Source: Candidatus Zixiibacteriota bacterium
GTDB taxonomy: Bacteria; Zixibacteria; MSB-5A5; SM23-73-2
DNA length: 64,000 nucleotides
Assembly (NCBI GenBank): GCA_030615745.1
Contig: JAUWYR010000006.1
Coordinates: forward strand, 11,014-75,013
Direction: 5' to 3'
Below, piece after piece: positions 2,427 through 55,906 of the stretch. The position numbers and the translations under genes were made by a program. Every line of letters begins with the position of its first letter. Position 1 is the first letter of the stretch. Below the pieces are notes generated by a model. It was not told the origin of the DNA and ran no database searches. It saw only the letters and a program-made list of their open reading frames with translations.

Positions 2427-3662
2427 ATGCCAATTATGAAAAAACTAATTTTAGTCACTTTTCTTTTCTTATCAATACTTTCCTGCTCTGATAGAAAAGA
2501 AGAGGTTCAAATCCACCTTTCCTTCTGGCAGTTCTGGACTGATCCTGAGGTCAGCCCAACAATTGCGAAGTTAGTATCTGAATTCGAAGAGGAGAATCCA
2601 GGGGTAAAAATAAATCTCACTGACCTGACCTGGTCAGATGGACATGAGAAGATAGTCGTTGCTTTCAGTTCGAAAACCGCACCCGATGTTTTGGAATTGG
2701 GCTCTGACTGGGTTTCTGAGTTCTCATCTGAAGGTGTTCTTATGGATATCACAGAACAGGCGGAAAAAATAAAAGAGAACCACCTTATGTGGGGGCCTGT
2801 TACCTACAAAGGGAAAATCTATGGATTCCCCTGGATTTTAGACACCAGGGTTTTGTTTTATAATAAACATTTGATGAAAGAAGTTGGATTGGACCCCGAA
2901 AATTTTCCCCAGACCTGGGATGAGCTTCTGGACTTCTGCAAAAAAATCAACACTTTAAAACCGAAAGCTTACGGTTTTGGAGCTAATTCTTTTGAACGAC
3001 ACAGGTTATACAAAAAGTTTTTGCCTTTCTTCTGGTCAAACGGAGGTAAAATATTAAATAAAGACTGGACTGAATCTCAAATCAACAGTTCTGAAGGGGT
3101 GCAAGCTTTAGAGTATTATAAAAAGTTAACAAAACAAGGTTTAATGGATACTCAAAGAAATTTAGATGAAAGGTTCAAAAAAAATCAAATTGGATTTTTG
3201 ATCTCAGGTGGATGGCTTCTACACAATATCGAAAAAAACCATCCAGAACTTAATTTTGGAGTCTGTCTTATGCCCAAACCGAAAAAGGATAAAGGAATTC
3301 CTGCATCATTTGCCGGAGGGGAGTATCTGGTGATAAGTAAGGATTCAAAACATAAAAAAGAGGCAATAAAATTTATAAAATTTTTTATAAAAAAAGAAAA
3401 CTGTTTAAAACTTTGCAAGACCATCGGAAGTGCATCTCCATCAGCAAAAGATGCTCATTTGGACCCATATTATCAAAACGACAAAAATCTTTCGGTTTTC
3501 CAGAATCAGCTAAGATATTCAATCTCTCCACCTGCTCATCCCAAATGGGTTTATATCGAAGAGATAATCGAGAAAGCAGTGGAAAATGTGATGTATGATA
3601 AGAAAACGCCTGAACAGGCTCTGGGTGAAGCGAAGATAAGAATAGATAGGCTATTAAAGTAG
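2427..3662 (+). CDS. Sugar ABC transporter substrate-binding lipoprotein (family 1), orphan
   Basis: 411 residues. From the second methionine (2436) it has a lipoprotein signal MKKLILVTFLFLSILSC, so the mature lipid-anchored cysteine follows LSIL. The rest matches the family 1 extracellular solute-binding fold (MalE/UgpB type): an opening FWQFWTDPEVSP strand, VKINLTDLTWSDG, APDVLELGSDW, YGFPWILDTRVLFYNK and a C-terminal PASFAGGEYLVISKDS region. Such proteins capture sugars or polyols and pass them to MalFGK-type permeases. No permease or ATPase adjoins it. The nearest set is the 35857-40238 transporter, which has its own binding protein, so this one may use that or a distant transporter (inference). 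Its stop codon lies inside a Y-shaped palindrome. Confidence 0.88.
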   Translation: MPIMKKLILVTFLFLSILSCSDRKEEVQIHLSFWQFWTDPEVSPTIAKLVSEFEEENPGVKINLTDLTWSDGHEKIVVAFSSKTAPDVLELGSDWVSEFSSEGVLMDITEQAEKIKENHLMWGPVTYKGKIYGFPWILDTRVLFYNKHLMKEVGLDPENFPQTWDELLDFCKKINTLKPKAYGFGANSFERHRLYKKFLPFFWSNGGKILNKDWTESQINSSEGVQALEYYKKLTKQGLMDTQRNLDERFKKNQIGFLISGGWLLHNIEKNHPELNFGVCLMPKPKKDKGIPASFAGGEYLVISKDSKHKKEAIKFIKFFIKKENCLKLCKTIGSASPSAKDAHLDPYYQNDKNLSVFQNQLRYSISPPAHPKWVYIEEIIEKAVENVMYDKKTPEQALGEAKIRIDRLLK

Positions 3663-3713
3663 GTCGAGATTCCGATCTCGACAATAAAATGTCGATTTTG
3701 AAAATCGACCTAC
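3659..3713. repeat. Y-shaped double-hairpin element at a gene 3' end
   Basis: Closing arms GTAG (3659-3662) and CTAC (3710-3713) enclose two hairpins: GTCGAGAT/ATCTCGAC and GTCGATTTT/AAAATCGAC. The first arm overlaps the stop codon of the upstream gene. It has the same layout as the other Y elements in this window. No T-run follows, so it is not a standard terminator. Confidence 0.75.
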
Positions 3714-4129
3714 AAAGATTTATGCTTGACAAAAAAAATTCTGTAGGAACAGCCCTTGTGGCTGTCCTTCAGGATATAAGGTATCTTGCTCTTGACTTCG
3801 TCTTACCAGTTTATATAGATTATGGGTCGGTTGCCGAGTCATCTATCTTATCTTTCAAGTAGCCTAAATTCCAAAATTCTATAAGTTGAGCCACAGACCC
3901 GAATTTTACCCCAAATGCTTGACATAATCGGGGGAATGCTCTCCCTACTTTTCCGTTGACAAAACTAAAGAATTTCTTATCCTTTTAATTAGTGATTTTA
4001 AAAAGAAAAGCTTTGTTCTTGACGGATGTTAGCCCAGACGAATCTTTGTTATCCGCCAATGTTTAAAGTTTCGGTGAAGATAACTGATAGGTATAATATC
4101 TCGTGAAAATAAAGTAATGATGTGATGTG
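3714..4129. other. Intergenic region with degenerate hairpins and a candidate promoter
   Basis: There is no plausible gene. A hairpin at about 3746-3767 pairs GGAACAGCC with GGCTGTCC. A candidate promoter for the 5'-nucleotidase gene has TTGACA at 3956-3961, a 16-base spacer and TATCCT. The rest looks like decayed repeat DNA. Confidence 0.4.
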
Positions 4130-5638
4130 ATGAAAAAAAGGAAAATTGTTCTCTATTTTATTTTTTGTGCTTTAATCTTCTTTTTTTGCTCCGATTGTGG
4201 AAAGCAACCTGAGGTTGAGAAGATTACGATTTTTTACTGGAACGATTTCCATGCGTCATTTCATCCTTACCGGTCCTCTTTTGACCCTGAATCACCTTTT
4301 GTCTCAGGTAGCGCTTATTTTTCTTCCTGGCTTGATTCCTTGAAGAAAAGAAGTGATAATTCGGTTTCAGTCTGTGCTGGGGATGAGTTGATGGGAACAC
4401 CACTTTCCACTTTGACTTCTGGTAAAGCTGAGTTTGAGATTTTGAATATTATACGACCTGATGTTTTTGAACTGGGCAACCATGAGTTCGATTATGGATT
4501 GGAGAACCTGAGAAGTTTAATAGATTTTGCTGAGTTTCCGATTATTTGTGCTAATGTAATCGATGAAGAAACCGACACTACTTTAGTTCCACCTTATTTG
4601 ATTTTGCAAAAAGGAAAAGCAAAACTTGCTTTTTTGGGATTGAATACTGAAACCCTGAAGCAGGTGGTAGTGGAAAAAGGGACTGTGGGACTGAAGGTAA
4701 AATCAGCGAAGAAGACTCTGGAAAAGTATTTGGACTCCTTAGATAAAGAAACTGACTTGATTGTTTTGGTCAGCCATATGGGGATCGAAAAAGATAAGAA
4801 GATAGCTAAAATGGTTAAAGGGATAGATATAATTATCGGCGGGCACAGCCATACTTTTCTTTTTTATCCAAAGGTAATTAACCAAACGGTAATATGTCAG
4901 GCGGGTTCCAAAGGCAGGTACATCGGAAAATTAGATCTGGTCGTTGATTTGGAGAAAGATAGGCTAATAAACTATGAGGGAAGACTAATTGAAACTTTGA
5001 ATGATAAAGTTTCCCCAAATCTTTTTATTCAGCAAAAAATCGATTCTTTAGAAAAAAGTCTTGCGCCTGATTTAGACAAAGTTATAGGTGAGCTTTTAAC
5101 TCCCTGGAAAAGAAAATCTGATGGTGAATCTAATTTAGGAAACTGGGAGGCGGATGTGATGAGGGAGCATACAAACTCTGATGTTGCTTTTATTAACTCA
5201 GGTGGAATGAGGAAAGACCTGCCAAAAGGACAAATAAAAGTTCGTGATATATGGGAGATAAATCCATTCTCAGACCATTTTGTCAGTTTTTATTTAACCG
5301 GAAAGCAGCTTCTAAATGTGTTAGAGCTTAACTCTTCTTTTGATTATGTGCTTATGCAGGTCTCTGGAGTCAAATATAGTTACGATCCCAGAAGACCTAA
5401 AGGGAAAAGGGTGATCGATTTGTGGATAGATGAAAAACCACTTTTGCCGAATAAAAGATATAAAGTAGCTATCAACGATTATATGCTGGACCATTTGGAA
5501 AAGTATATCGGAATTTCAAAAAAGAAAATAGATTACAGAATTTTTCCTGAACTTGACCGGGATGTATTTATTAAAGCAGTAAAAAAGCAAAAAATAATAG
5601 ATTCTAAAATTGAGGGCAGGATTAAAAAGAAAAGATAA
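4127..5638 (+). CDS. 5'-nucleotidase / UshA-family metallophosphatase lipoprotein
   Basis: 503 residues in the two-domain UshA layout. An N-terminal hydrophobic signal ends in a Cys-rich lipobox-like stretch (FFFCSDC). The calcineurin-like metallophosphatase domain has NDFH (39-42), GDELMG (85-90), GNHEFDYG (117-124), SHMG (216-219) and GGHSH (238-242), which supply the dinuclear metal ligands. The C-terminal 5_nucleotid_C domain (about 320-490) has NSGGMRKDL and an I-NPF motif. Family members hydrolyse extracellular nucleotides or cyclic nucleotides for nucleoside and phosphate scavenging. The exact substrate cannot be told from sequence. GTG at 4127 is followed directly by ATG at 4130, and the ATG is the likelier start. 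Confidence 0.9.
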   Translation: MMKKRKIVLYFIFCALIFFFCSDCGKQPEVEKITIFYWNDFHASFHPYRSSFDPESPFVSGSAYFSSWLDSLKKRSDNSVSVCAGDELMGTPLSTLTSGKAEFEILNIIRPDVFELGNHEFDYGLENLRSLIDFAEFPIICANVIDEETDTTLVPPYLILQKGKAKLAFLGLNTETLKQVVVEKGTVGLKVKSAKKTLEKYLDSLDKETDLIVLVSHMGIEKDKKIAKMVKGIDIIIGGHSHTFLFYPKVINQTVICQAGSKGRYIGKLDLVVDLEKDRLINYEGRLIETLNDKVSPNLFIQQKIDSLEKSLAPDLDKVIGELLTPWKRKSDGESNLGNWEADVMREHTNSDVAFINSGGMRKDLPKGQIKVRDIWEINPFSDHFVSFYLTGKQLLNVLELNSSFDYVLMQVSGVKYSYDPRRPKGKRVIDLWIDEKPLLPNKRYKVAINDYMLDHLEKYIGISKKKIDYRIFPELDRDVFIKAVKKQKIIDSKIEGRIKKKR

Positions 5639-5653
5639 ATCAAGGAGTTTTCT

Positions 5654-6040
5654 ATTAAAAAGAAATTCTTTTTCAATCGTTGGATATGGGTTATATCTTA
5701 TGCAGTCCTTATCTTCGTTTTGACCTCCTCACCTGGTCTTTCTTATCCAAAATTTGGCTTTGATCTTATGGATAAATTTTATCACTTTTTGGTCTATGCG
5801 GGTTTGTCCTATCTTTTGTTTTTAGCATTTTTTAAAACAAAAAATCTTTATTTTAAAGAGAAAGCTTATTTTTTCAGTATATTTTTAGGTACAATTCATG
5901 CTTTGACAAGTGAGCTTTATCAGAGTTTTGTTCCGGGAAAATATTGTGATTTTTTTGACTTTTTAGCCGACTTTATAGGTGTGATTTCGATTCAGTTTTT
6001 TCTTTTTATTCATCAAAGATTAAAAAAGGAAAGTGTATAA
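5654..6040 (+). CDS. VanZ-like membrane protein with a probable ATT start
   Basis: A small polytopic protein of the VanZ-like family: the first helix ends in SSPGL, then DKFYHFLVYAGLSYLLF, SELYQSFVPG and a DFLADFIGV motif. Only a TTG at 5720 offers a conventional start, and it would remove half of the first helix. The frame stays open upstream to a TAA at 5636. A good Shine-Dalgarno (AGGAG at 5643-5647) sits 6 bases before an ATT at 5654, giving IKKKFFFNRWIWVISYAVLI, the expected basic N-terminus plus helix. I therefore place the start at ATT 5654 (inference). The physiological role of these chromosomal VanZ homologues is unknown. It follows the nucleotidase gene by 15 bases and is likely in the same operon. 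Confidence 0.75.
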   Translation: MKKKFFFNRWIWVISYAVLIFVLTSSPGLSYPKFGFDLMDKFYHFLVYAGLSYLLFLAFFKTKNLYFKEKAYFFSIFLGTIHALTSELYQSFVPGKYCDFFDFLADFIGVISIQFFLFIHQRLKKESV

Positions 6041-6053
6041 ATCTGGATTTTTA

Positions 6054-6137
6054 TTGACAAGACTTTTTTAATTTTTATCATAATAGAAAGTAAAATGATT
6101 TAATTTCTCAAAAGCCCTGAAAAGTTTTGAGGGATTT
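6054..6137 (+). promoter_or_regulatory. hisS promoter with a terminator-like leader hairpin
   Basis: TTGACA at 6054-6059, a 16-base spacer and TATCAT at 6076-6081. About 20 bases after the predicted start is a hairpin with arms CTCAAAA (6107-6113) and TTTTGAG (6125-6131), followed by a T-run that reaches the ATG of hisS. This could act as an intrinsic attenuator or occlude initiation. No alternative antiterminator or T-box core was recognised. Confidence 0.45.
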
Positions 6138-6141
6138 TTTT

Positions 6142-7404
6142 ATGGAGTTTAGGTCGATATACGGAACTGGTGACATTTTACCTGAGGATAGTTTTAAATG
6201 GCAACACATCGAGGAGAAGGTAAAAAAGATTATGGCTTTTTATAATTATAAAGAGATAAGAACACCTATTTTTGAGAGCACCCAGCTTTTTTCCCGCTCA
6301 ATTGGTGAGGATACAGATATAGTGAGGAAAGAGATGTATACTTTTTTGGACCAGGGCAAAAGAAGCCTCACTTTGCGTCCTGAAGCTACAGCATCCGTGG
6401 TCAGGGCTTATCTTGAGCATAATCTGGGCAAGGTTTTTCCTTTTGTAAAACTATATTATATTGGTCCTATGTTCAGGCAGGAAAGACCACAGAAAGGGAG
6501 ATTGCGTCAGTTTCATCAATTCGGTGCAGAGGCAATTGGCTCTTTAGACCCTTTGGTGGATGCTGAGCTAATAGAGCTTTCAACAAGAATTCATCACGAT
6601 CTTGGAATAGAGGATTACACCTTACATTTGAACAGCATCGGATGCAAAAAATGCAGGTCAGCTCATCGTGATCTCTTTATCAAGTTTATAAAAGATAGAT
6701 TTGAAAATTTCTGTTCAGAATGCCAGCTCAGGCTGAATCGAAATCCATTGAGGATTTTTGATTGTAAAAAAGAAGGGTGTGTTAAGATTTTAGCTTTTGC
6801 ACCTAAAATGATTGATTTTTTATGTGAGGAGTGCAGAACACATTTTGAAAAGGTCAAAAGTTATTTGAAAAAATTAGGTATCGAGTATAAAGAGGATCCA
6901 TCATTGGTCAGGGGTTTGGATTACTATACAAAAACAGTATATGAGTTAAAATCCTCCCTTTTGGGCGCACAAGACACCCTATGTGGTGGTGGAAGATATG
7001 ACCTTTTAATAGAGGAATTAGGAGGAGAACAAACTCCTGCCATGGGTTTTTCCGCTGGGATGGAGAGGATACTTTTGGTTTTAGAGCTCAAGAAAAAAAA
7101 GTTTGGGGAGGATGAAAGATTAGATTTTTTTATCTGTCCTTTAGGACAGGGGGCGAAAGAAAAAGCATTGAAATTGATAAAAGATATAAGGAAGAAGAAT
7201 CTTAGATCCGATATGGACTATCTTAATCGTAGTCTGAAGTCCCAGATGAAGGAAGCCAACCGACAGAAGGCAAAAAAGGTGCTAATTATCGGAGAGGAAG
7301 AGTTAAAAAAAGGGGTTATAATATTAAAAGATATGGAGAGTGGAGAGCAAAAAGATGTTGGAATGAATGAGTTTTTAAATGAGATTTCTGCTTATGAAGA
7401 ATAA
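6142..7404 (+). CDS. hisS: Histidyl-tRNA synthetase
   Basis: A class II synthetase that charges tRNA-His. The start is ATG 6142 (MEFRSIYGTGDILPED). An upstream TTG at 6127 falls inside the leader hairpin and is unlikely. Motifs are LRPEATASVVRAYLE and FRQERPQKGRLRQFHQFGAE (motif 2), the histidine-specific LVRGLDYYTKTVYE and GGGRYD, and motif 3 GFSAGMERILLVLE. The C-terminal anticodon-binding domain starts at about residue 330. A Cys-rich insert (CKKC, CSEC, CKKEGC, CEEC, about residues 170-245) suggests a zinc-binding insertion domain, seen in some bacterial HisRS. The HEPN gene starts inside its last codons. Confidence 0.96.
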   Translation: MEFRSIYGTGDILPEDSFKWQHIEEKVKKIMAFYNYKEIRTPIFESTQLFSRSIGEDTDIVRKEMYTFLDQGKRSLTLRPEATASVVRAYLEHNLGKVFPFVKLYYIGPMFRQERPQKGRLRQFHQFGAEAIGSLDPLVDAELIELSTRIHHDLGIEDYTLHLNSIGCKKCRSAHRDLFIKFIKDRFENFCSECQLRLNRNPLRIFDCKKEGCVKILAFAPKMIDFLCEECRTHFEKVKSYLKKLGIEYKEDPSLVRGLDYYTKTVYELKSSLLGAQDTLCGGGRYDLLIEELGGEQTPAMGFSAGMERILLVLELKKKKFGEDERLDFFICPLGQGAKEKALKLIKDIRKKNLRSDMDYLNRSLKSQMKEANRQKAKKVLIIGEEELKKGVIILKDMESGEQKDVGMNEFLNEISAYEE

Positions 7405-7807
7405 ATCGACAAAAAGAACAAATCCTGAGAAGGTGGCTAAGCTCTGGTTCGATAAATCTAAGGAGGATTTGAAATCTGCCAAAGCAATGCTTGAAGCGCG
7501 TAGATATAGCTGGTGTGCTTTTATCTGCCAACAGGCGATAGAGAAATACTTAAAGGGAGCTTATGTGGAAAAGTTTAATCAGGTCCCTCCTTATATTCAC
7601 AGAATAGAAAGACTTTGCAAGGAGCTTGGACTGGATATTCCAGAAAAACATTTTGATTGGATTGTTAGGATCGATAAATATTATATAGCTACAAGGTATC
7701 CTGCTTATAAAGAGGCGATAAGTATCAAAAAGTATAGCCAGGCGGAAGAAATCTATAATAAAACTAGAGAGATTTTGAAATGGTTAAAAGAAACAATCAA
7801 AACTTGA
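7379..7807 (+). CDS. HEPN-domain protein, toxin half of a HEPN/MNT pair
   Basis: 142 residues (129 if started at ATG 7394). It fits the PF05168-type HEPN fold: LWFDKSKEDLKSAKAMLEAR helix, RYSWCAFICQQAIEKYLKGA core, a basic-histidine IHRIERL segment and TRYPAY. Members pair with a minimal nucleotidyltransferase; HEPN partners in characterised pairs act as RNases and the MNT partner neutralises them, often by AMPylation. I cannot see a clear canonical Rx4-6H RNase motif, so catalytic competence is uncertain. It overlaps the 3' end of hisS and the 5' end of the MNT gene by 28 bases, implying translational coupling. Confidence 0.88.
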   Translation: MRFLLMKNKSTKRTNPEKVAKLWFDKSKEDLKSAKAMLEARRYSWCAFICQQAIEKYLKGAYVEKFNQVPPYIHRIERLCKELGLDIPEKHFDWIVRIDKYYIATRYPAYKEAISIKKYSQAEEIYNKTREILKWLKETIKT

Positions 7808-8115
7808 AGATAATCAAAAGGTTTTTGAAAAAAGTAAGTGAAGAAATTGAGATTGATAAAGTCATACTTTTTGGATCAGTAAGTAAGGGCAAACAGAAAA
7901 GATGGAGCGATATCGATTTAGCTATCATCTCTGATGATTTCAAAGGGATTAACAATTTTGAAAGATTGGTGATATTAGGGAAGCTGGCTTGGTATGCTAA
8001 CGCAACGGAAATAGAGGCTATAGGGTATACAACGGATGAATATAAGAACGCAACTAAGTTAGATTTTTTAGGTGAGATAAAAAGGACCGGGAAGATTGTT
8101 TATCAGAAAAATTAG
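7780..8115 (+). CDS. Minimal nucleotidyltransferase (MNT), antitoxin half of the pair
   Basis: 111 residues with the nucleotidyltransferase signature GSVSKGKQKRWSDIDLAIIS (GS-x10-DxD), which carries the two metal-binding aspartates. It overlaps the HEPN gene by 28 bases and ends 19 bases before aspS. In known HEPN/MNT systems this protein blocks the HEPN toxin by binding or by adding AMP groups. The predicted metal ligands are intact, so an active enzyme is likely. Its position between two aminoacyl-tRNA synthetase genes places a tRNA-targeting-type module inside a translation operon. Whether the three are functionally linked is unknown. Confidence 0.88.
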   Translation: MVKRNNQNLKIIKRFLKKVSEEIEIDKVILFGSVSKGKQKRWSDIDLAIISDDFKGINNFERLVILGKLAWYANATEIEAIGYTTDEYKNATKLDFLGEIKRTGKIVYQKN

Positions 8116-8134
8116 TAAGAAATAATTTAACAAA

Positions 8135-9967
8135 ATGGCTAATTTCGAAGATTTAAAACGAACCCATACCTGCGGGGAATTACACAAAGGGGATGCAGGC
8201 AAAAAAGTGATTTTGAATGGGTGGGTGCACAGGTGGAGAAATCACGGCGGGGTTATATTTATTGACCTTCGTGATAGATATGGGTTAACCCAAGTCGTTT
8301 TCAAGCCGGATTCTTTGGATGAGGAGACAATAAAGAATGCTTCTCATCTTCGGGCAGAGTATGTGATAAGTGTTGAAGGAAAGGTTAACTTAAGACCTGA
8401 AGGGATGAGAAATCCCAATTTGGAAACAGGTGATATTGAACTTTTGGTAGAAAAACTTACAATTTTAAATCCATCCAAAACCCCTCCTTTTGAAATCGAG
8501 GACCATACTGATGCAAAAGAGGAGCTGAGATTAACATATAGATACTTAGACTTACGCAGAGCTCCTTTACAGGAAAAGATTAAAATCAGACACAAGGTAA
8601 CCAAAGCTGTGAGAGACTATTTGGATTCGCAAGGATTCTACGAGATAGAAACCCCTCTTTTGATAAGAAGCACACCCGAGGGAGCAAGGGATTTTATTGT
8701 TCCTTCGAGGACAAATCCAGGCAAATTCTTTGCCCTTCCCCAATCACCCCAGCTTTTAAAACAGATTCTGATAGTCTCAGGGTTTGATAAGTATTTTCAG
8801 ATAGCACGCTGCTTAAGGGATGAGGACTTAAGAGCAGATAGACAGCCCGAGCACACACAGATAGATATGGAGATGGCATTTGTTACAGAGGATGACGTTT
8901 TTAGTGTGGTCGAAGGGATGATGGCTTATGTCTTTAAAAAAGTCTTAGATGTTGAGGTCAAAACTCCTTTTCCCAGACTAAGATTTGTTGAAGCGATGAA
9001 AAGATATGGGACAGACAAACCAGATACCAGATTCGAGCTAAAGATAGAGGATTTAACAGATATTTTGGCTTCGTCTGGATATAAGGTATTTTCTGAGACG
9101 ATTAAAAATGAAGGGAAAGTTCAGGGAATAAATTTCAAAAGGGGTGGATTTTTGTCGAGAAAAAAAATAGAACAGTTAGAGCAATTTGTCAAAGAATCTG
9201 GTGCCAAAGGACTTCTATGGATTGCAAAGACAAAAGATGGTTTAAAATCTCCTTTTATCAAATTTATCAGCCAAGACGAAAAAGAGATTATCTGTGAGAA
9301 ATTGGGAGTTGAGGAGGGTGACATCGGCTTTATAATAGCGGATAAAGAGGAGATTGTCTTAACATCCTTGGGTAAATTGAGAAAAGAGATAGCAGAAAGA
9401 TATAATCTTATCGAGGGCTCTAAATGGAATTTTGTCTGGATAACAGAGTTTCCTTTGTTCGAGTATAATCCTTTTGAGAAAAGACTGGTGGCGATGCACA
9501 ATATAGTGACTATGCCCTATGAGGAGGATATTTATAAGTTAGATGAAGGATTCAAATCAGATCTTTCAGTAGATAATCCTTCCCATCCCTGGCGCAATAT
9601 AAAAGCAAGACAATACGATTTAGTCTTAAATGGGGTGGAGATTGCCTCAGGTGGAATCAGAAATCATAAAAAAAATATTCAGCAAAAGATTTTAAACATC
9701 CTGGGGTGGGATAATAAAAAAGCAGAAAAAGCCTTTGGCTTTCTTTTAAAAGCCTTAGAATACGGTGCTCCTCCTCATGGAGGGATAGCCCCTGGATTGG
9801 ACAGGATTGTTGCTTTGATGACCGGCTCCGATTCCATCAGAGATGTGATCGTATTTCCCAAGACCACTCAGGCACTATCTTTGATGGATGGTGCTCCAGC
9901 AGAGGTGGAAAAGAACCAACTGGAGAAGTTAGGTATTAAATTAGATTTAGAAAAAGACAAAAACTAA
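8135..9967 (+). CDS. aspS: Aspartyl-tRNA synthetase, bacterial GAD-containing type
   Basis: 610 residues, the usual length for the bacterial enzyme. An N-terminal OB-fold anticodon-binding domain (GWVHRWRNHGGVIFIDLRDR) is followed by the class II catalytic core: FALPQSPQLLKQILI, motif 2 CLRDEDLRADRQPEHTQIDM, and motif 3 HGGIAPGLDRIVALM. The GAD insertion lies at about residues 300-410, which marks the bacterial rather than the archaeal form. It charges tRNA-Asp; whether it is also able to charge tRNA-Asn cannot be judged reliably here. hisS and aspS are often neighbours, but here the HEPN/MNT pair separates them. Confidence 0.97.
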   Translation: MANFEDLKRTHTCGELHKGDAGKKVILNGWVHRWRNHGGVIFIDLRDRYGLTQVVFKPDSLDEETIKNASHLRAEYVISVEGKVNLRPEGMRNPNLETGDIELLVEKLTILNPSKTPPFEIEDHTDAKEELRLTYRYLDLRRAPLQEKIKIRHKVTKAVRDYLDSQGFYEIETPLLIRSTPEGARDFIVPSRTNPGKFFALPQSPQLLKQILIVSGFDKYFQIARCLRDEDLRADRQPEHTQIDMEMAFVTEDDVFSVVEGMMAYVFKKVLDVEVKTPFPRLRFVEAMKRYGTDKPDTRFELKIEDLTDILASSGYKVFSETIKNEGKVQGINFKRGGFLSRKKIEQLEQFVKESGAKGLLWIAKTKDGLKSPFIKFISQDEKEIICEKLGVEEGDIGFIIADKEEIVLTSLGKLRKEIAERYNLIEGSKWNFVWITEFPLFEYNPFEKRLVAMHNIVTMPYEEDIYKLDEGFKSDLSVDNPSHPWRNIKARQYDLVLNGVEIASGGIRNHKKNIQQKILNILGWDNKKAEKAFGFLLKALEYGAPPHGGIAPGLDRIVALMTGSDSIRDVIVFPKTTQALSLMDGAPAEVEKNQLEKLGIKLDLEKDKN

Positions 9968-9977
9968 AAGGAAAAAC

Positions 9978-10955: not shown

Positions 10956-10966
10956 AGGCAAGAATT

Positions 10967-17741: not shown

Positions 17742-17803
17742 GTAACCCAGGTTGCCCCCAACCTGGGCAAAAAAAGACCCACCTTGAGGCAAGGTGGGTT
17801 TAC
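17742..17803. repeat. Y-shaped double-hairpin element
   Basis: Closing arms GTAA (17742-17745) and TTAC (17800-17803) enclose hairpins CCAGGTTG/CCAACCTGG and CCCACCTT/AAGGTGGG, separated by an A-rich linker. The region 17629-17931 has no gene. An approximate direct repeat of about 40 bases around TTTTTTGATGGC occurs near 17670-17708 and 17824-17862. Confidence 0.7.
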
Positions 17804-18477: not shown

Positions 18478-18541
18478 TGATGCATCGGCAAAAGGATTTG
18501 CCGATGATCGAGCTTCGGTAATTCCTATTACCAAAGCATCA
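18478..18541. repeat. Y-shaped double-hairpin element
   Basis: Closing arms TGATGC (18478-18483) and GCATCA (18536-18541) enclose ATCGGCAAA/TTTGCCGAT and GGTAAT/ATTACC hairpins. The rest of 18421-18809 has no gene. It has another hairpin AATTCAATCC/GGATTGAGTT (about 18608-18631) and CGCCACAAT/ATTGTGGC (about 18711-18729). Confidence 0.7.
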
Positions 18542-28315: not shown

Positions 28316-28446
28316 GTAGCGTCGGGGTTTATCCCCGACGTTAATCAAATTACATAGGTAATTCTCTGGTTAGTGCTGGAATTGGATTTCCAGCACTGTT
28401 TAAAATCTGGAAAATTCAATTCCTAACTAAAAAGAGCCTTAGCTAC
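28316..28446. repeat. Large Y-type multi-hairpin element
   Basis: Closing arms GTAGC (28316-28320) and GCTAC (28442-28446) enclose GTCGGGG/CCCCGAC and a TGCTGGAA/TTCCAGCA hairpin, itself inside GGTTAG/CTAAC arms. It sits between two minus-strand genes and could form several nested stems. Same GTAG...CTAC bounding as the elements at 3659 and 47407. Confidence 0.65.
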
Positions 28447-39064: not shown

Positions 39065-39126
39065 GTGCCTGTTGGGTCCCCTGACCCAACAGGGTTCTCC
39101 AGTCAGGTCGGGGACCTGACTGGCAC
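39065..39126. repeat. Y-shaped double-hairpin element
   Basis: Closing arms GTG/CAC enclose CCTGTTGGGT/ACCCAACAGG and CCAGTCAGGT/ACCTGACTGG hairpins. A further structure follows at 39135-39184, with outer arms GTAGTTGC/GCAACTAC and inner GCTCGAT/ATCGAGC. Both lie between the permease genes and the ATPase gene. Confidence 0.75.
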
Positions 39127-40350: not shown

Positions 40351-40409
40351 GTTGTTGCCGAATTTCTAATTCGGCAATACCTTGCTGTATTTAAAATGCA
40401 GCAACAACA
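40351..40409. repeat. Y-shaped double-hairpin element (GTTG/CAAC type)
   Basis: Closing arms GTTG/CAAC enclose TTGCCGAATT/AATTCGGCAA and TTGCTGTATTT/AAATGCAGCAA hairpins. Very similar to copies at 55466 and 55715, and to a single-hairpin half at 60626-60656. A GTCAGG/CCTGAC hairpin (about 40265-40284) and CGGAGCC/GGCTCCG (about 40300-40318) lie nearby. Confidence 0.85.
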
Positions 40410-47406: not shown

Positions 47407-47477
47407 GGTAGCCGGAGGCTTCAGCCTACGGATGAGGGTGATGATTTTCAGAATATTCACCCATATGGGCGGCTACC
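47407..47477. repeat. Y-shaped double-hairpin element
   Basis: Closing arms GGTAGCC (47407-47413) and GGCTACC (47471-47477) enclose GGAGGC/GCCT and GGGTG/CACCC hairpins. The region 47284-47621 also holds the CCTCACCCC palindrome and a partial TGGAGTATGCGAAGC repeat. Confidence 0.7.
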
Positions 47478-47516
47478 GACTTCCTACACATTATGGGATG
47501 CGGAAGTTTGCCAATC

Positions 47517-47571: not shown

Positions 47572-47621
47572 TTTCTAACTATCAGGAGTAGCTCCTGACC
47601 GAACAGTAAAAAGGGGTGATT

Positions 47622-48125: not shown

Positions 48126-48240
48126 AAATATACCCACCTTTACATTTTTTGGTATTCTTTTTTATTATCGGAATTAGCTTAAACTATATTTAGTTAAAAT
48201 AAAATCAATAAAATGCTCTTAAAACATGAATAAGATGGTG

Positions 48241-48336
48241 TGGTCGGATTTGGAAATCCGACCTACGGGAGCTTACTCATCCACCTTACCCCTAACCCCT
48301 CTCCTCTTAAGGAGAGGGGAACAAAAGGGGTGAGGT
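48241..48336. repeat. Two intergenic repeats: GTCGGATTT hairpin and CCTCACCCC palindrome copy 2
   Basis: 48241-48266 has GTCGGATTT/AAATCCGAC followed by CTAC, the same half-element as near 2380-2403. 48283-48336 has the second nested palindrome (ACCTT..CCCCTCTCCTC..GGGGTGAGG), about 95 percent like 47517-47571. Confidence 0.8.
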
Positions 48337-48421
48337 TTTTTAAAATTTTTGGGAACCTTAAGAAAGCCGGCGTAGAGTGGAATTTACCTTCACCCATTAT
48401 GGGCGTACACAAGCTTCGCCT

Positions 48422-49576
48422 CTATGCACTTTTCTTTAATACAGCTATCAGCGCCTCTATCTCCTCTTCGGTGTTATAAAAATGAGGAGAAACTCTTATA
48501 CCTCTTTCCCGATATGAGACAAAGATATTCTTTTTAGTCAGTTTTTTATAAAGTTTTTGAGTGTTTTTGCTTGAGAAACTTAAAATTGAAGATCTGTGTT
48601 TCGGATTAAGGTCTGTTCTTATCTTATAAGGAGAATCTTTCAAATACTCTATTAGTCGATCTAAAAGTCTTCTGTTGTGTTGTTCGATATTTTTTATTCC
48701 TATTTCCAATAAAAGCCCCAAGGATGAGTGCATTGTCATAATAGAGCTGAAAGGATAGGAGCCGGTTGCAAACCTGCGGGCATCAGGAAAGGGTTTTAAA
48801 TCGTATCTTAAAAGGTCGGTGAAATTGGTTTTCCAGTCAACTCCCATCCAGCCGGAAAAAGAGGGCTTTAATTTTCTTTTGGCTTTTTTAGAATAGTAAA
48901 AAAATCCGCAAGCATCGCCGGAAAGAAGCCATTTCTGCCCACCACAACTTAAAAAATCTATTTTGAGCTTTTTGACATCCAAATTTAGATTTCCAATCCC
49001 TTGGATTCCGTCCACCACAAAAAATATATCATTTTTCTCACAGATTTTGCCGATTATTTCAAGATCATTTTTGAATCCGTTGAAAAACTGAATATAGCTT
49101 AAGGATAAAACCTTTGTTTTTGAATCGATCGATTTGATAAAATTTTCGATATCGAAAAACCTATCTTTGTTAGGAATAAATTTTATTTTGACCCTTTTGC
49201 TTTTTAGACTAAGCCAGGGATAAACATTTGCTGGGAACTCAACATCTGATAAAAGGACTTTATCATTTGGTCTTAAATCTAATCCACAGACTGCAAAGTT
49301 CAACCCGAAAGAAGTATTAAAACAAAAGCCTATCTCCTCAACTTTCGCATTTATTAATTTAGCTTGTTTTTTGCGGGTTTTATCCAAAAGAGCAAACCAG
49401 ATCTTGTCAGTATCACCGGTTTTTTGCAAGGTTGCATATTTGTTGAACTCCTCTTTTGCTTTTAAAGAACACAAAGGTATTGGTCCAAAAGAAGCATGGT
49501 TTAAGTAGTTAATTCTCTTATGAGTAAATGGAAACTCTTTTCTATATTTTTTCAAATCGATTCTTGGCTTTTTCAT
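48422..49576 (-). CDS. Class V PLP aminotransferase-like enzyme
   Basis: 384 residues. PLP fold of the aminotransferase class V group (cysteine desulfurase or isopenicillin N epimerase-like): NHASFGPIPLCSLKA, FFVVDGIQGIGNLN (Asp contact), and PLP lysine in SCGGQKWLLSGDACGFFY. Substrate unknown. It is not near isc or suf genes; function may be a desulfurase, deaminase or epimerase, and I would not choose. The next gene upstream is the NAD-dependent epimerase, on the same strand, with 105 bases between. Confidence 0.85.
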   Translation of the reverse strand: MKKPRIDLKKYRKEFPFTHKRINYLNHASFGPIPLCSLKAKEEFNKYATLQKTGDTDKIWFALLDKTRKKQAKLINAKVEEIGFCFNTSFGLNFAVCGLDLRPNDKVLLSDVEFPANVYPWLSLKSKRVKIKFIPNKDRFFDIENFIKSIDSKTKVLSLSYIQFFNGFKNDLEIIGKICEKNDIFFVVDGIQGIGNLNLDVKKLKIDFLSCGGQKWLLSGDACGFFYYSKKAKRKLKPSFSGWMGVDWKTNFTDLLRYDLKPFPDARRFATGSYPFSSIMTMHSSLGLLLEIGIKNIEQHNRRLLDRLIEYLKDSPYKIRTDLNPKHRSSILSFSSKNTQKLYKKLTKKNIFVSYRERGIRVSPHFYNTEEEIEALIAVLKKSA

Positions 49577-49681
49577 AATTTATTTGTTTAAAATATTGCA
49601 AAAATAAATTTTTGCACTCCAGTAGGTAGATTTTCTCATTTGAGTCATTTCTGACCAAAATCGACTTCCCTTTACCCGCAT

Positions 49682-50683
49682 CTACAACCAACCATTGCTT
49701 TTATACCATTCGACACTCTCCTTTACTCCTTTTTCAAAAGTATATTTGGGGAAAAATCCAAGCTCATCTTTAGCCTTGGATGAACTACATAGCCAGTATT
49801 TTTGGGTTATCTCCTTTGCTTTTTCCGAGTTCAAAGCAGATGTTTTTCCTTTTAGTTTTCCCAAAAGCTCTGAGAAGAAGGCAACTATCATAAATATAAA
49901 AACAGGTATCCTTAAATATATAGCTTTTACCTTCAGTGCATCCTGAATAACTTTTTCTGTCTCCCTTAAAGAATAAGGTCTGTCATCTGCTAAAAAATAG
50001 ATTTGTCCAATCCCTTTTTCTGATTCTGCAGATAAGATAATCCCTTCTACTAAATCTTTTACATATATTAAACTTATGTAGCTTTCTTTTTTTCCGAATA
50101 GAGGCTTTAAGCCTTTATTAATAAATTTGAAGAAAAGATATATATCCTTATCTCTGGGTCCATAAACAGATGGTGGCCTGATTACAGTTATTGGAAGCTT
50201 TCCCTTATATTTTAAAACCTCCACCTCAGCTAAAAGCTTGCTTTTACCATACTCAGATATTGGATTAAAAGGAGATTTTTCATCTACTGAGCTGAAATCT
50301 TTACTAGGTCCTACAACCGACTGGGTGCTTATATACAAAAACCTTTTTATATGAGAATTTTTTTCATAACAGGTCTCGATCAAATTTTTAGTCCCTTGAT
50401 AATTGACATTGTAAAAATCTTTTCTGCTTTTAGCTTTGGTTAAAGCTGCAACGTGAAATATAAAATCAACTTCTGAAACAACCTTTTCCAAAAAGCTTTT
50501 ATCAAAAAGACTGCCAAAGAAAAGCTCAACATCCAAATCTGAAAGCCATCTTAAATCACTTGTTTTTCTTACCAGGCATTTAACTTTATACCCTTTTTTT
50601 AATAAAGCCTCTGTGAGATGGCTTCCAATAAAGCCATTGGCGCCTGTAACCAATACTTTCTTTTGTCGAACTTCTTGATTCAT
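49682..50683 (-). CDS. NAD-dependent epimerase/dehydratase-family (SDR) protein, CerR-like candidate
   Basis: 333 residues. Rossmann VTGANGFIGSH (12-22) for NAD(P) and the catalytic Tyr-x3-Lys SEYGKSK (Tyr145, Lys149) mark an extended SDR. The C-terminus has a hydrophobic helix (about 255-275; YLRIPVFIFMIVAFFSELLG), which suggests membrane association, as for sterol- and sphingolipid-type reductases. It lies back-to-back with the SPT-like gene at 50848. In Caulobacter a member of this superfamily reduces 3-oxo-ceramide; the same role here is an inference from gene context. Confidence 0.8.
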   Translation of the reverse strand: MNQEVRQKKVLVTGANGFIGSHLTEALLKKGYKVKCLVRKTSDLRWLSDLDVELFFGSLFDKSFLEKVVSEVDFIFHVAALTKAKSRKDFYNVNYQGTKNLIETCYEKNSHIKRFLYISTQSVVGPSKDFSSVDEKSPFNPISEYGKSKLLAEVEVLKYKGKLPITVIRPPSVYGPRDKDIYLFFKFINKGLKPLFGKKESYISLIYVKDLVEGIILSAESEKGIGQIYFLADDRPYSLRETEKVIQDALKVKAIYLRIPVFIFMIVAFFSELLGKLKGKTSALNSEKAKEITQKYWLCSSSKAKDELGFFPKYTFEKGVKESVEWYKSNGWL

Positions 50684-50718
50684 CTAAATAAAAGATTTAA
50701 AATACTCAGCAATTTTGC

Positions 50719-50747
50719 TTGACAAAACTTGCTTTATTTCATACCAT
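50719..50747 (+). promoter_or_regulatory. Sigma70-type promoter of the SPT-like gene
   Basis: TTGACA (50719-50724), 17-base spacer and TACCAT (50742-50747). The leader contains an ATATGCGAAGCATCTTGACGAT fragment of the TGGAGTGT repeat family at about 50759. Confidence 0.5.
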
Positions 50748-50847
50748 AAAAATTCAAAATATGCGAAGCATCTTGACGATTTCGCTAATTTTTTAAAGTA
50801 TCAATTTTTTAAAGTTTAGCAACAATAATTTGAAGAAGGTTTAAAAA

Positions 50848-52029
50848 GTGGACATTTTCGAAAAATGCAGAAACTTTGTAGATGCCAAAGAGGTGATGGC
50901 AAAGGGTTTTTATCCCTATTTTAATCCCATCTCCTCTGGCGCAGATACTGAGGTCATAATCAACGGCAGAAAGATAATAATGATTGGGTCTAACAATTAT
51001 CTGGGTTTGACCTCTCATCCCAAGGTTAAACAAGCGGCTATTGATGCTGTTGAAAAATATGGTTCCGGCTGCACCGGGTCGAGATTTTTGAATGGGACTT
51101 TAGATATCCACGAGGAGCTGGAAAGAAGACTGGCAAAATTTATGAAAAAAGAGTCAGCTTTAGTATTTTCCACTGGATTTCAGACCAATTTGGGCACTAT
51201 CTCATCATTGGTGAGTAAAAGGGACTATATGATAACAGATCGCTCAGACCACGCAAGCATTGTTGATGGATGCAGGTTATCTTTTGGAAAGGTTTTGAAA
51301 TTCAAACACAATGATATGTCAGATCTGGAAAGAGTATTATCAAATCATGACCAAGAGGGCGGAAAGATAATTATTGTGGATGGGGTTTTCAGCATGGAGG
51401 GTGATATTGCTAATCTTTTAGAGATTGTGAGATTGGCAAAAAAGTATGATGCGAGAGTGATGGTGGACGATGCCCATGCTATTGGTGTTTTAGGTGAGAA
51501 TGGAATTGGAACAACAGAGCATTTTGGATTGGAGGATGAGGTGGATTTAGTGATGGGGACCTTCTCCAAGTCTTTTGCCTCATTGGGTGGTTTTATAGCC
51601 GGACCTGAGGATGTGATTCACTATATCAAGCATTTTGCAAGGTCTTTGATCTTCTCCGCCTCAATGCCACCTTCAGCAGTGGCTTCCTGTTTAGCAGCTC
51701 TGGATATAATCGAGACTGAGCCTGAAAGGAGAAAAAGGTTATGGGAGATAACCCATAGGATGCAAAAGGAATTCAAGAAGATGGGATTTAACATTGGAAA
51801 AACTCAGACTCCGATAACTCCAATATATGTTGGTGATGATATGAAGTGCTTCCAATTCTGGAAGATGCTTTTCGACGAGGGGATATTCACCAATCCGATA
51901 ATTTCTCCAGCAGTTTCACCAGGCTCTCAGCTTTTGAGAACAAGCTATACCGCCACCCACACCGATGAGCAGATGGACAGGGTTTTGGAGGTTTTCTCAA
52001 GGGTGGGGAAAAAGATGGGGGTGATTTAG
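50848..52029 (+). CDS. Alpha-oxoamine synthase, serine palmitoyltransferase-like
   Basis: 393 residues. PLP-dependent oxoamine synthase fold: NNYLGLTSHPKV, GSGCTGSRFLNGTLDIHEEL, DRSDHASIVDG (PLP-stacking His), VMVDDAHAIGVLG and PLP Lys241 in MGTFSKSFASLGGFIAG. The TFSKSFAS lysine loop and IFSASMPP segment fit the serine palmitoyltransferase (SPT) branch better than KBL (glycine acetyltransferase) or BioF by eye. SPT condenses serine with an acyl-CoA or acyl-ACP to 3-ketosphinganine. Its divergent neighbour is an SDR and a bCerS-like gene lies downstream. KBL or BioF remain alternatives. Confidence 0.82.
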   Translation: MDIFEKCRNFVDAKEVMAKGFYPYFNPISSGADTEVIINGRKIIMIGSNNYLGLTSHPKVKQAAIDAVEKYGSGCTGSRFLNGTLDIHEELERRLAKFMKKESALVFSTGFQTNLGTISSLVSKRDYMITDRSDHASIVDGCRLSFGKVLKFKHNDMSDLERVLSNHDQEGGKIIIVDGVFSMEGDIANLLEIVRLAKKYDARVMVDDAHAIGVLGENGIGTTEHFGLEDEVDLVMGTFSKSFASLGGFIAGPEDVIHYIKHFARSLIFSASMPPSAVASCLAALDIIETEPERRKRLWEITHRMQKEFKKMGFNIGKTQTPITPIYVGDDMKCFQFWKMLFDEGIFTNPIISPAVSPGSQLLRTSYTATHTDEQMDRVLEVFSRVGKKMGVI

Positions 52030-52232
52030 TTTTTCAAGAAATTGTACTAGGTATATCATTCTGCCATACAAGTTATAGCGGGGTACCTTACACCGACAGA
52101 TAAAAGGAAGTAAGAGGGATAGTTTAACCAGAGGGATGTATATCTGAAACGATTATGAAATGCTCAAAAAGTAGGAAGATATCAGTTCTACATCGGATAT
52201 AAACAACATGGTTGAACTTTTTGCATAATCGA

Positions 52233-53411
52233 ATGAACGAAAGTAGAATTTCTGTTTTAAGTTGTCCAAATTGTCGATCGTGGCTAGTTATAGATTACCG
52301 AGATCAAAAGTTTTACCAAAAAGGTATAAATGTTTTGGTATATGAGTGCCCCTTTCTTGTATGCAAAAAATGTGGTTTTGAAAAATTAGTAGATATTGCT
52401 TCAAGGACAATTGAACATCGTTTGAATAAGGCTTTGAGTGAGGGAGCCAAACAGATTGAAATTCAGGGTCCTCCAAAGCGTCTTCGATTTGATTATTCAG
52501 AAGATATACCTTTCGAGTATGATGGGAGGGATTGGTGGGCAATTCCAGGACTCCATCGTCCATGGGACGAAGGTTTTTTGACGCCTGTATTCTTTCGACG
52601 TAAGGTTTTGACCAAATATATGACGCAACCAGGATATTTCTTAGGAATGTCTTCTGCAACTGGTGGTGCGATAGGTTTTCACGAGCGTTGGTCTATTCGC
52701 TTTGGTATAAATCAACGAAATGAAGTGGCTATATGGCTTGGTTACATAGCTAGACTACCGGAAGAGGAAAGGTATTATTTGCGCTCTGAGAATATTCCAT
52801 CTTCACACGATGTTGGCTCAGATTTTTTCACTGCATCCATTGAGGTAATAGCTCCGAGTCCTTCGCCTGAACTAAAGATTCTGGAAGCCAGAGACCGTTT
52901 CTACAAATCAGTTTTTCAGAAATGGGAAGTCTCCATCTCACATTTTGATAATGAAGCGATAGATAGCATGGAAAATATAGTAAGACCACCGGTTTGGACT
53001 GAAGAGATCGTAAGAACGGTAATTGATGCTTTAAACAAAGTCTGTATTGAGACACTTGATTCTTCTAATATAAAAAGCCATTTGATAACTGAAAACAAAG
53101 CAAAAGCAGACGATTTAAAGGATTTAAGGAGTTTGAAATTGTTCAATCTGTGGATTAAGATTTTTCTACGTGTAGCCAATAGTGAAGAAATACTACGTCC
53201 TCTGTTCATTCTGTATGACCTTAGAGTATTATTATTACATCTTTTCCCAAAAGAGAAGCGGCGAGAAGAAATCAAATCGATTGCAAATCGTTTATCTATT
53301 GATAAAGACAACTTGGATTTGGAAAGTATTTATGCTGAGCTAATTGATCGACTTGCAAAAATGTGGGAGAAATTATGTGAGTTTGCTGATCAATGGAAAG
53401 ACTTTTCATAA
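52233..53411 (+). CDS. Hypothetical protein with N-terminal zinc ribbon
   Basis: About 392 residues from ATG 52233 (frame opens at TTG 52212). A four-Cys zinc ribbon is near the N-terminus (CPNC and, about 30 residues on, CKKCGF). The central region (about 90-215) has PWDEGFLTPVFFRRKVLTKY and EVAIWLGYIARLPEEERYYL; the C-terminal half is helical. No family recognised. It stands alone with no obvious operon partner and lies between the SPT-like and bCerS-like genes. Codon choice looks different from its neighbours (more CGT/CGA), so it may be acquired. Confidence 0.7.
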   Translation: MNESRISVLSCPNCRSWLVIDYRDQKFYQKGINVLVYECPFLVCKKCGFEKLVDIASRTIEHRLNKALSEGAKQIEIQGPPKRLRFDYSEDIPFEYDGRDWWAIPGLHRPWDEGFLTPVFFRRKVLTKYMTQPGYFLGMSSATGGAIGFHERWSIRFGINQRNEVAIWLGYIARLPEEERYYLRSENIPSSHDVGSDFFTASIEVIAPSPSPELKILEARDRFYKSVFQKWEVSISHFDNEAIDSMENIVRPPVWTEEIVRTVIDALNKVCIETLDSSNIKSHLITENKAKADDLKDLRSLKLFNLWIKIFLRVANSEEILRPLFILYDLRVLLLHLFPKEKRREEIKSIANRLSIDKDNLDLESIYAELIDRLAKMWEKLCEFADQWKDFS

Positions 53412-53561
53412 GAAATGATAGAGTTCAGTCACTAGCCTGTTTGCGGTTCGCTTTCCCAAATGCTTTAGGGGCTTCGCACAAACACCTAAGACATTTTCTA
53501 TTGGTGCAACGTCAGGCGAAATTCCTAAAAAGAAAATACAGGAAAAAGGAGGAAACCAATT

Positions 53562-54119
53562 ATGCCATGGATTAAGGTCATAGATGAGTCGGAAGCTAAA
53601 GGAGAGTTAAAGGAGATCTATGAAAAGGTAAGAAAGCAACGTGGTAAGCTCTCAAATATTATGAAGGTCCACAGTTTGAATCCGCCTGCAATGAAGACGC
53701 ATCTGGACCTTTATATCACACTTATGTTTGGAGAGTCCGGCTTAACTCGTGAGGAATGTGAACTTATCGCCACGGTTGTTTCTGCTGTAAACGGTTGTGA
53801 ATATTGCATCGATCATCATGGGGAAGCATTAAATTATTATTGGAAAGACAAACCTCGGGTGCAACAGTTGATTCAGGACTTTCATAAAATCATTTTGCCT
53901 GAAAAGACACGCAAGATGCTCGAATACGTGGTTAAATTGACAAAGACACCTTCTGCAGTTAATCAAGACGATATTAAGATTTTGCGTCAATATGGTTTTT
54001 CAGATGAGGATATCTTGAGCATAAACCTGATCACCAGCTATTTTAACTTGGTAAACCGTATTGCGTCGGGTTTAGGAGTGGAATTTACCCCTGATGAAGT
54101 ACGCGGGTATAAATATTAA
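53562..54119 (+). CDS. AhpD-like peroxidase-related protein (CMD family)
   Basis: 185 residues. Carboxymuconolactone decarboxylase-like fold with the redox motif CEYCIDHHGEAL (CxxC-x3-H), preceded by LTREECELIATVVSAVNG. It matches the uncharacterised peroxidase-related subfamily, which uses the Cys pair for peroxide or hydroperoxide chemistry; the partner lipoyl protein of true AhpD is not seen. It is 150 bases after the zinc-ribbon gene, with its own GGAGG-type ribosome-binding site. Confidence 0.9.
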   Translation: MPWIKVIDESEAKGELKEIYEKVRKQRGKLSNIMKVHSLNPPAMKTHLDLYITLMFGESGLTREECELIATVVSAVNGCEYCIDHHGEALNYYWKDKPRVQQLIQDFHKIILPEKTRKMLEYVVKLTKTPSAVNQDDIKILRQYGFSDEDILSINLITSYFNLVNRIASGLGVEFTPDEVRGYKY

Positions 54120-54313
54120 AAAAAGCTTAAAGTTGCTTTGGCTTAGCAAGTCGTTGGCGAGAATTTTAGAAGGTTGAGCATGCGACATACGTCATTTCAC
54201 CTAACAGAGGATAACCTCGAGCTCTCCTAAATGGATTTATCGTCAAGATGCATAAGCATAGTTGCATTTTCTTTCTCAAGATGGTATATTATCGATAAGA
54301 TTCGAGTCGAAAA

Positions 54314-55435
54314 GTGTTAAAAATAAAGCAAGCACAGACCAAAAAAGATTTGACAGGTTTCATCAAATTCCCCTGGAAAATCTATAAAGATGACCCCAAC
54401 TGGGTTGCTCCTTTAATCTCAGAAAGAAAGGAGTTTTTTACCCCAGAAAAAAATCCATTTTTCAAACACTCTGATGTGGAATTCTTTTTAGCAAAAAGGA
54501 ATTCAGAAATTGTTGGGAGAATCTGCGGGATTGTCAATTATAATCATATCGATTTTCATAATGAGAAGACTGGATTTTTTGGATTTTTCGAATGTATCGA
54601 TGATTTCAATGTTGCTAAACTCCTTTTAGATACTGTCAGAAATTGGCTTAAATCAAAAGGTATGGAGATAATGAGGGGTCCTGCGAATTTCTCCACCAAT
54701 GATGAGGTTGGATTTTTGTTAGAAGGATTTGAATCTCCTCCGGTCTTTATGATGACCTATAATCCTGAATATTATCTTGATTTTATGGAAAGATATGGGA
54801 TGCAAAAGGCAAAGGATTTGTTCGCCTGGTATTTTGACAAAGATATCAAAATTCCGGAAAGGATTGCAAGAATCGCTGAAAAAATTGAAAAAAAGGAGAA
54901 TTTAAAAGTTAGAACAGTTCATCTAAAAGATTTTGAGAATGAGATTAAAAGGATAAAAAAGATTTACAATTCTGCCTGGAGCAGAAACTGGGGATTTGTT
55001 CCGATGACCGATGAGGAGTTTGATCATCTGTGTAAGAATTTAAAACAGATTATCGACCCTCAAATGGTTTTTATAGCTGAGATTGATTCTGAGCCAGTTG
55101 GATTCTCTGTGGCTTTGCCTAATATAAATCCGGTTTTGAAGAAATTGAATGGGAGGCTCTATCCTTTTGGCATTTTGAAACTCCTGTGGTTTACAAAAAT
55201 TAAAAACATTGTTAAAGGGGTAAGGATAATCACCATGGGGGTTGTGGATACACACAGAAAAAAGGGGATAGAGACCCTCTTTTACATAAGAACAATTAAA
55301 GATGGGATAGAAAGAGGTTACAGTTGGGCGGAGATGTCCTGGGTATTGGAGGATAATATCTTGATGAATAAAGCCTTAGAAACTTTAGGGGCGAAGCTTT
55401 ATAAGAAATATAGGATATATGAGATGAGGATATAA
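54314..55435 (+). CDS. GNAT-fold acyltransferase, bacterial ceramide synthase-like (bCerS) candidate
   Basis: 373 residues. An N-terminal IKFPWKIYKDDPNWVAPLIS, the SDVEFFLAKRNSEIVGRICG strand, and NEKTGFFGFFECIDDFNVAK, which match the large family annotated as GNAT or dATP pyrophosphohydrolase-like. The C-terminal half is a second GNAT-like unit (VFIAEIDSEPVGFSVALPNI, VVDTHRKKGIETLFYIRTIK). From memory, Caulobacter bCerS, which N-acylates 3-ketosphinganine, belongs to this family; the functional match here is an inference. The gene is 194 bases after the AhpD-like gene on the same strand and has a TTG start (54314). Confidence 0.78.
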   Translation: MLKIKQAQTKKDLTGFIKFPWKIYKDDPNWVAPLISERKEFFTPEKNPFFKHSDVEFFLAKRNSEIVGRICGIVNYNHIDFHNEKTGFFGFFECIDDFNVAKLLLDTVRNWLKSKGMEIMRGPANFSTNDEVGFLLEGFESPPVFMMTYNPEYYLDFMERYGMQKAKDLFAWYFDKDIKIPERIARIAEKIEKKENLKVRTVHLKDFENEIKRIKKIYNSAWSRNWGFVPMTDEEFDHLCKNLKQIIDPQMVFIAEIDSEPVGFSVALPNINPVLKKLNGRLYPFGILKLLWFTKIKNIVKGVRIITMGVVDTHRKKGIETLFYIRTIKDGIERGYSWAEMSWVLEDNILMNKALETLGAKLYKKYRIYEMRI

Positions 55436-55465
55436 CTCTGCTGGGTTGCCTCCTTTCAACTTATA

Positions 55466-55906
55466 GTTGTTGCCGAATTTGTAATTCGGCAATTCACTGC
55501 TGCATTTCAAATGCAGCAACAACACTTGGAGCAACTTCACAGTAGCGTCAGGAGTTTCCTCCTGACGTTTTTTTTTCTTTTGGTAGGTAACTCCCGATAG
55601 CACATTGAATATAGAATTATCGATTTTAGAAGATCGAGCTACTTGTTATGGCGGGGTACCCTTACCCCGCTCATATAGGTCAAGGGTGAGGGCACCCTGG
55701 ATAAACTTATCTTTGTTGTTGCCGAATTTATAATTCGGCAATTCCTTGCTGCATTAGAAATGCAGCAACAACACGGAGATCAATCTTCCTGTGGCGTCAG
55801 GAGTTTTTTCTGACGCTTTTTGTTCTTTTGGTAGGTAACTCCCGATAGCATATTAGGTAAAGAATTGTCGATTTTGGAAAATCGACCTACATGTTAGGGC
55901 GGGGTA
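55466..55906. repeat. Tandem 193-bp multi-hairpin module (two copies)
   Basis: Copy A is 55466-55658, copy B 55715-55906; about 80 percent identical by eye. Each has a GTTG/CAAC Y element (55466-55523; 55715-55772), a GTCAGGAG/CTGAC hairpin with a T-run (about 55546-55569; 55796-55822), GGTAGGTAACTCCCGATAGCA, an ATCGATTTT-type hairpin with CTAC and a GGCGGGGTA end. Copy B runs into the final codons and stop of mutM, so that mutM ends within the repeat. Confidence 0.85.

Follow-up and report, generated by a model that had tools for sequence, protein, structure and literature searches.

The Y-shaped elements that lie between genes in the DNA analysed here are, with high confidence, REPINs, i.e. 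paired REP hairpins, and belong to several families within one genome. As REP/REPIN they represent a known kind of element that is new for the phylum Zixibacteria; what is unusual about them is that the tags GTTG, GTGC and TGAT lie outside the published GT[A/G]G consensus. The identification draws on what we observed of their anatomy, their sharp-ended repetition, covariation, the location of RAYT genes between matching REPs, and the presence or absence of copies in a sister species. The elements thereby receive a name (REPIN) and a likely agent (RAYT), and REPINs together with many RAYTs are placed in Zixibacteria, a phylum on which our literature search found no relevant REP/RAYT paper. The window, the whole stretch of 64,000 nucleotides under analysis (G000:C69:11014-75013), is part of a 2.28-Mb genome in 74 contigs, and the assembly is rated 98.6% complete. 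Among named relatives, candidate division Zixibacteria SM23_73_2 is the closest, with 79% identity.

Double-hairpin elements in the window

An earlier note on this DNA listed nine sites at which a short closing stem surrounds two strong hairpins. We read and folded all nine: seven are real, the one at 47407 is decayed, and the one at 28316-28446 joins unrelated hairpins. A repeat at ~55645-55708 and several single REPs had been missed. The elements are as follows:

3659..3713, + strand: REPIN of the GTAG-GTCGAGAT family, GTAG and hairpin followed by hairpin and CTAC (fold, strict scan)
17742..17803, + strand: REPIN of the GTA[A/G]-CCCAGGTTG / ACCCACCTTG family (fold, strict scan)
18478..18541, + strand: REPIN-like doublet with head TGAT and tail ATCA (fold, repetition)
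28316..28340, + strand: single REP GTAG-CGTCGGGGTTTATCCCCGACG (fold, tag census)
39065..39126, + strand: REPIN of the GTGC family (strict scan, repetition)
40351..40409, + strand: REPIN of the GTTG-TTGCCGAATT / TTGCTGCATT-CAAC family (repetition)
47407..47477, + strand: decayed GTAG-CCG-type REPIN (weak second hairpin, outside the strict scan)
55466..55523, + strand: REPIN of the GTTG family (strict scan; right arm matches the right flank of the C25 RAYT gene)
55542..55567, + strand: single REP GTAG-CGTCAGGAGTTTCCTCCTGACG with a 3' T-run, possibly a terminator (tag census)
~55645..55708, + strand: double-hairpin repeat GTTA... GCGGGGTACCCTTACCCCGC ... GGTCAAGGGTGAGGGCACCC (repeated some two dozen times in the sister genome G001)
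55715..55772, + strand: REPIN of the GTTG family (strict scan; apart from the loop, right arm identical to the C25 RAYT flank)
55867..55890, - strand: single GTAG-GTCGATTTT REP, half of a 3659-type REPIN (tag census)

The strict scan required a 4-nt head, a perfect stem of at least 7, a gap of at most 25, a second perfect stem, and a tail that is the reverse complement of the head. In the window it recovers five doublets (3659, 17742, 39065, 55466 with a scan start at 55467, and 55715), and in 100 dinucleotide-preserving shuffles of the window none. The sites 40351 and 18478 narrowly miss the rule; both are repeated elements with sharp ends. Chance formation of the hairpins in an AT-rich genome could appeal to a looser scan, which also returns many weak double hairpins and whose output we discarded as mostly noise, but the strict result and the sharp-ended repetition reduce its probability to practically nil. 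For the seven sites chance is refuted; it could still account for the second half of 28316-28446. That remainder forms a hairpin of its own, GTGCTGGAA..TTCCAGCAC; the CTAC found 131 nt from the GTAG of 28316 is probably a coincidence.

The elements had been taken for a single family with changing hairpin sequences. Instead, at least five separate families of dispersed repeats are present, each with between 13 and 36 matches in the genome. The left hairpin of the 3659 type (GTAG-GTC...ATTCC...) has 17 matches in its own genome, 18 in the sister genome G001 and three in G009. The 17742 family counts 13 own-genome matches, the 18478 family 16, and the 39065 family 20 (itself included in each case, and for the last some being both strands of one palindrome); all three have sharp ends and unrelated flanks, and further copies of the 17742 family occur in G001. 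The GTTG-TTGCCGAATT/TTGCTGCATT family is represented by 36 own-genome matches (some of them two strands of one palindrome), seven in G001 and none in 18 other relatives. Pairs related to the single REP at 28316 and to the decayed 47407 element are found at L005:19900-19957 (GTAG-CGTCGGGC / CGTCTGGG) and at L005:17547-17606 and L019:8931-8987, respectively. The left flanks are T-rich for GTTG elements and A-rich for GTAG-GTCGA elements, at too few independent sites to be used as an insertion preference.

The GTAG head of the 3659 REPIN provides the TAG stop of ORF 2427-3662 (overlap at 3659-3662); the orthologue of this ORF in G001 ends just ahead of its own copy of the element.

A probable tag rather than a closing stem

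Throughout these families, palindromic hairpins with a tag directly 5' of the foot are repeated between genes, and in the doublets, including 40351 and 18478, two such REPs are inversely oriented with their tags outside. The two hairpins of one element have different inner stems. In a census of 368 kb of the own genome, the 4-mers directly 5' of perfect hairpins are heavily enriched for GTAG (34 observed vs 0.7 expected), GTTG (13 vs 1.2) and GTAA (6 vs 1.1), and many of the tagged hairpins have no partner.

This bears on the closing stem of the earlier note (GTAG/CTAC, GTTG/CAAC and others), which is not supported as such: the same 4-mers stand 5' of partnerless hairpins and also flank RAYT genes, there about 550 bp apart. 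Within the GTTG family the closing head/tail pairs exhibit no compensatory change, a count that is weak taken by itself, since these pairs hardly vary. Because tags sit at single hairpins and the closing pairs lack compensatory change, we interpret the complementarity of head and tail as two tagged hairpins in inverse orientation; what looked like a closing stem is probably a 4-nt tag instead, seen inverted when two hairpins pair up. The claim that pairing is conserved in the hairpins themselves is borne out in both families counted: compensatory changes occur in 3 of 8 pairs of the GTAG-GTC hairpin and in 3 of 24 pairs of the GTTG doublet, in sets that were collected by sequence patterns and are thus not selection-free.

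Hairpin pairs with compensatory changes could also be kept mainly as RNA elements, i.e. as protectors of transcript 3' ends, attenuators or terminators in which the closing 4-mers pair. Their intergenic position, in some cases right behind a gene (3659 overlaps a stop codon), would suit such a role, and an influence of REPs on termination and on mRNA stability is known (PMC6006769). Yet most sites lack a T-run, as the earlier note had correctly stated, and an Rfam search of the window returned only tRNA, with no curated RNA family matching at the elements. The tags at single hairpins, the absence of compensatory change in the closing pairs, the similarity and dispersal of the copies, and the tags that bracket transposase genes likewise speak against it. 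We therefore consider a primary RNA function improbable, and prefer to read the elements as REPINs.

RAYT genes between matching REPs

The genome encodes three RAYTs, all of which pass the NCBIfam REP_Tyr_transpos cut-off (145, 103 and 129 bits vs 80); the HxH motif and the tyrosine are present, the catalytic tyrosine in every aligned row. The C17 RAYT matches E. coli TnpAREP (PDB 4ER8) with an E value of 3e-27. Against PDB sequences the C25 RAYT yields only a weak 4ER8 match (E 0.26) that ranks below chance matches, and hence its membership is based on NCBIfam. The C25 gene has GTTG-GTGCTGGATT... on one side and ...TTGCTGCATT...-CAAC on the other; the second of these is identical to the right arm of 55715 except for the loop. 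Comparable arrangements exist in relatives: a RAYT gene on C113 of G001 carries complete 3659-type REPINs on both sides, GTGC hairpins of the kind seen at 39065 enclose a RAYT of G004 (same order; L243), and a hairpin similar to the 55645 repeat, GTTG-GTGCGGGGTACCC...CCGCAC, adjoins a RAYT in G007.

For the TGAT and GTA[A/G] families, no cognate RAYT was found in the own genome or in the relatives examined, and for the GTGC and 3659-type families none in the own genome. Because the assembly is 98.6% complete, families without a cognate in their own genome may be orphans or may be served in trans. RAYTs are widespread in the class, with 122 of 132 genomes containing them and up to 21 genes per genome. 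A long divergent RAYT in G001 (C12; L209) has similar GTCAAGC/GTCAGCC hairpin arrays on both sides, an arrangement unlike that of the REPIN-flanked RAYTs.

The suspicion that the elements are relics of mobile elements with fold-back ends came near the truth: the elements are doublets of REPs, and the transposases associated with them are RAYTs (HUH/Y1). Miniatures of another sort, either MITEs of an ordinary terminal-inverted-repeat DNA transposon or of IS200/IS605, would share the short inverted ends, and hairpin ends resemble those of IS200/IS605. This origin is very improbable: the associated proteins pass the REP_Tyr_transpos cut-off but match IS200 only weakly (29.3 and 27.8 bits vs a cut-off of 55), and the REP signature, a tag immediately 5' of every hairpin, is present.

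The REPIN model, in analogy to E. coli and Stenotrophomonas, can be sketched as follows. A REPIN pairs two REP hairpins, the foot of each preceded on its 5' side by a tetranucleotide tag, in an inverse orientation that makes the tags outermost as inverted repeats. The RAYT, an HUH/Y1 single-strand endonuclease, would bind tag and hairpin in ssDNA, possibly the lagging-strand template; its tyrosine would cut beside them, and the strand would be rejoined elsewhere. REPINs would consequently be scattered into intergenic DNA, with the RAYT gene remaining between its own REPs. Recognition of tag and hairpin in ssDNA, a nearby cut and strand transfer are established RAYT biochemistry (PMC8266576), and the spreading unit is taken to be the REPIN (PMC3116915). 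For the elements of the window we infer the biochemical activity, the strand and the cut site, and likewise any further role that the elements may have in transcription or RNA stability.

Gain and loss between sister species

A colinear comparison with G001 reveals copies gained or lost between relatives. The 3659 REPIN is common to both species as an orthologous copy. At the orthologous gap of 40351 the outer flanks are recognisable and the REPIN is absent; the gaps corresponding to 28316, 39065 and 47407 contain different sequence, and the GTTG REPINs of the 55466-55772 gap are absent from the sister contig. The GTTG family as a whole shows the same disparity (36 vs 7).

Comparison with known systems

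Contrary to the earlier note, which knew of no named family with this architecture, REPs, BIMEs and REPINs are described (PMC2817692, PMC3116915, PMC3733652, PMC6006769). With REPINs (Bertels and Rainey, PMC3116915) and E. coli BIMEs our elements share two inverse hairpins, outside tags, a short spacer, dispersed intergenic copies and a cognate RAYT. They differ in that several families occur in one 2.3-Mb genome, with GTTG, GTGC, TGAT and GTAA tags beside GTAG, and in that partner hairpins have a common foot and a differing inner stem. The portion of the GTAG REP superfamily survey considered here (PMC3733652) also describes heterodimer REPs, and gives dimers with tags outside as the commonest type. 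The GT[A/G]G tag that would link our elements to this superfamily is present at 3659, 28316, 47407 and, with variation, in part of the 17742 family. The survey covers eight phyla; Proteobacteria, Cyanobacteria, Chloroflexi, the PVC group and Thermotogae are named in that portion, and Zixibacteria is not among these. The tag is GTTG at 40351, 55466 and 55715, GTGC at 39065 and TGAT at 18478; because these depart from GT[A/G]G, we refer to the respective elements as a REPIN variant.

Like RAYT/TnpAREP proteins (PMC2817692, PMC8266576; PDB 4ER8), ours have HxH and a catalytic tyrosine, and the genes lie between inverted REPs; unlike them, the C25 protein, C24 of G001 and their relatives lack Q95 and R104 of the E. 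coli enzyme, and their flanking tags are not GTAG. Non-canonical tags are not an entirely new idea. Judged by its description, TnpAREP subclass 2.6 (PMC6006769) similarly has no GT[AG]G consensus, and its guide-contact region is not conserved; its structures are weaker, atypical and mostly from Bacteroidetes, whereas ours are long near-perfect palindromes.

Tags and residues of the RAYT lineage

RAYT-associated REPs are known to carry GT[A/G]G (PMC2817692, PMC6006769), and in the Stenotrophomonas enzyme a change from GTAG to GTTG abolishes cleavage (PMC8266576). Within the class, RAYT genes are flanked by GTTG, GTGC, TGCT and other tags. Usable flanks are available for 83 RAYTs, of which about 50 have no tag at all or one at a single flank. 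The search for single-sided tags covered just four 4-mers, beginning with GTAG; row L144 was reassigned to GTTG by hand, its GTAG belonging to a neighbouring 3659-type REP. The same non-GTAG tag is found on both flanks of 12 of 65 RAYT genes, compared with a mean of 2.5 when flanks are mispaired, and GTAG on both flanks of 18 genes, compared with 7.7.

In the RAYT tree all non-GTAG rows fall into one half, including a clade of 26 rows with 100/98 support, and the other half holds 33 of the 35 GTAG rows. Q95 and R104 (with K allowed for R) are kept in 34 of 35 GTAG RAYTs vs none of 23 others. Tag and residue state agree in 57 of 58 rows; the agreement goes back to no more than one or two independent changes, which is why we treat it as a correlation. 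The Fisher p value computed for it takes no account of the kinship among rows. It is suggestive, rather than proof, of a tie between non-GTAG tags and RAYTs without the two GTAG-contact residues. At about even chances, we hypothesize that a Zixibacteria RAYT lineage switched its tag from GTAG to GTTG, GTGC, TGCT and others and lost the GTAG-reading residues, tag and enzyme changing together, and that every branch gave rise to a REPIN population of its own. The field has yet to settle how the cut site is selected by the tag (PMC8266576), a question that natural RAYT/tag pairs departing from GTAG make testable.

A 15-bp insert

A precise 15-bp sequence, CCTGCCCGGCCAGGG, preceded by G in all copies listed, was observed in the own genome (L013:7586, L031:1582, L036:1424, L004:2237, L156:2299 and others, none in the window), in many cases within REP hairpins. 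With at most one mismatch in a 14-mer, 19 copies are present in 368 kb of the own genome, vs none for the reversed control; 155 kb of G001 contain one. For 19 of 32 distinct copies a related copy without the 15 bp was matched (about two being self-matches from a tandem array at L015), and the sequence appears to insert precisely into other repeats. Very small mobile repeats known from cyanobacteria are similar to it, but longer. Two relatives with one mismatch lie inside long ORFs (L029:1023 and L027:356), where 15 bp would keep the frame.
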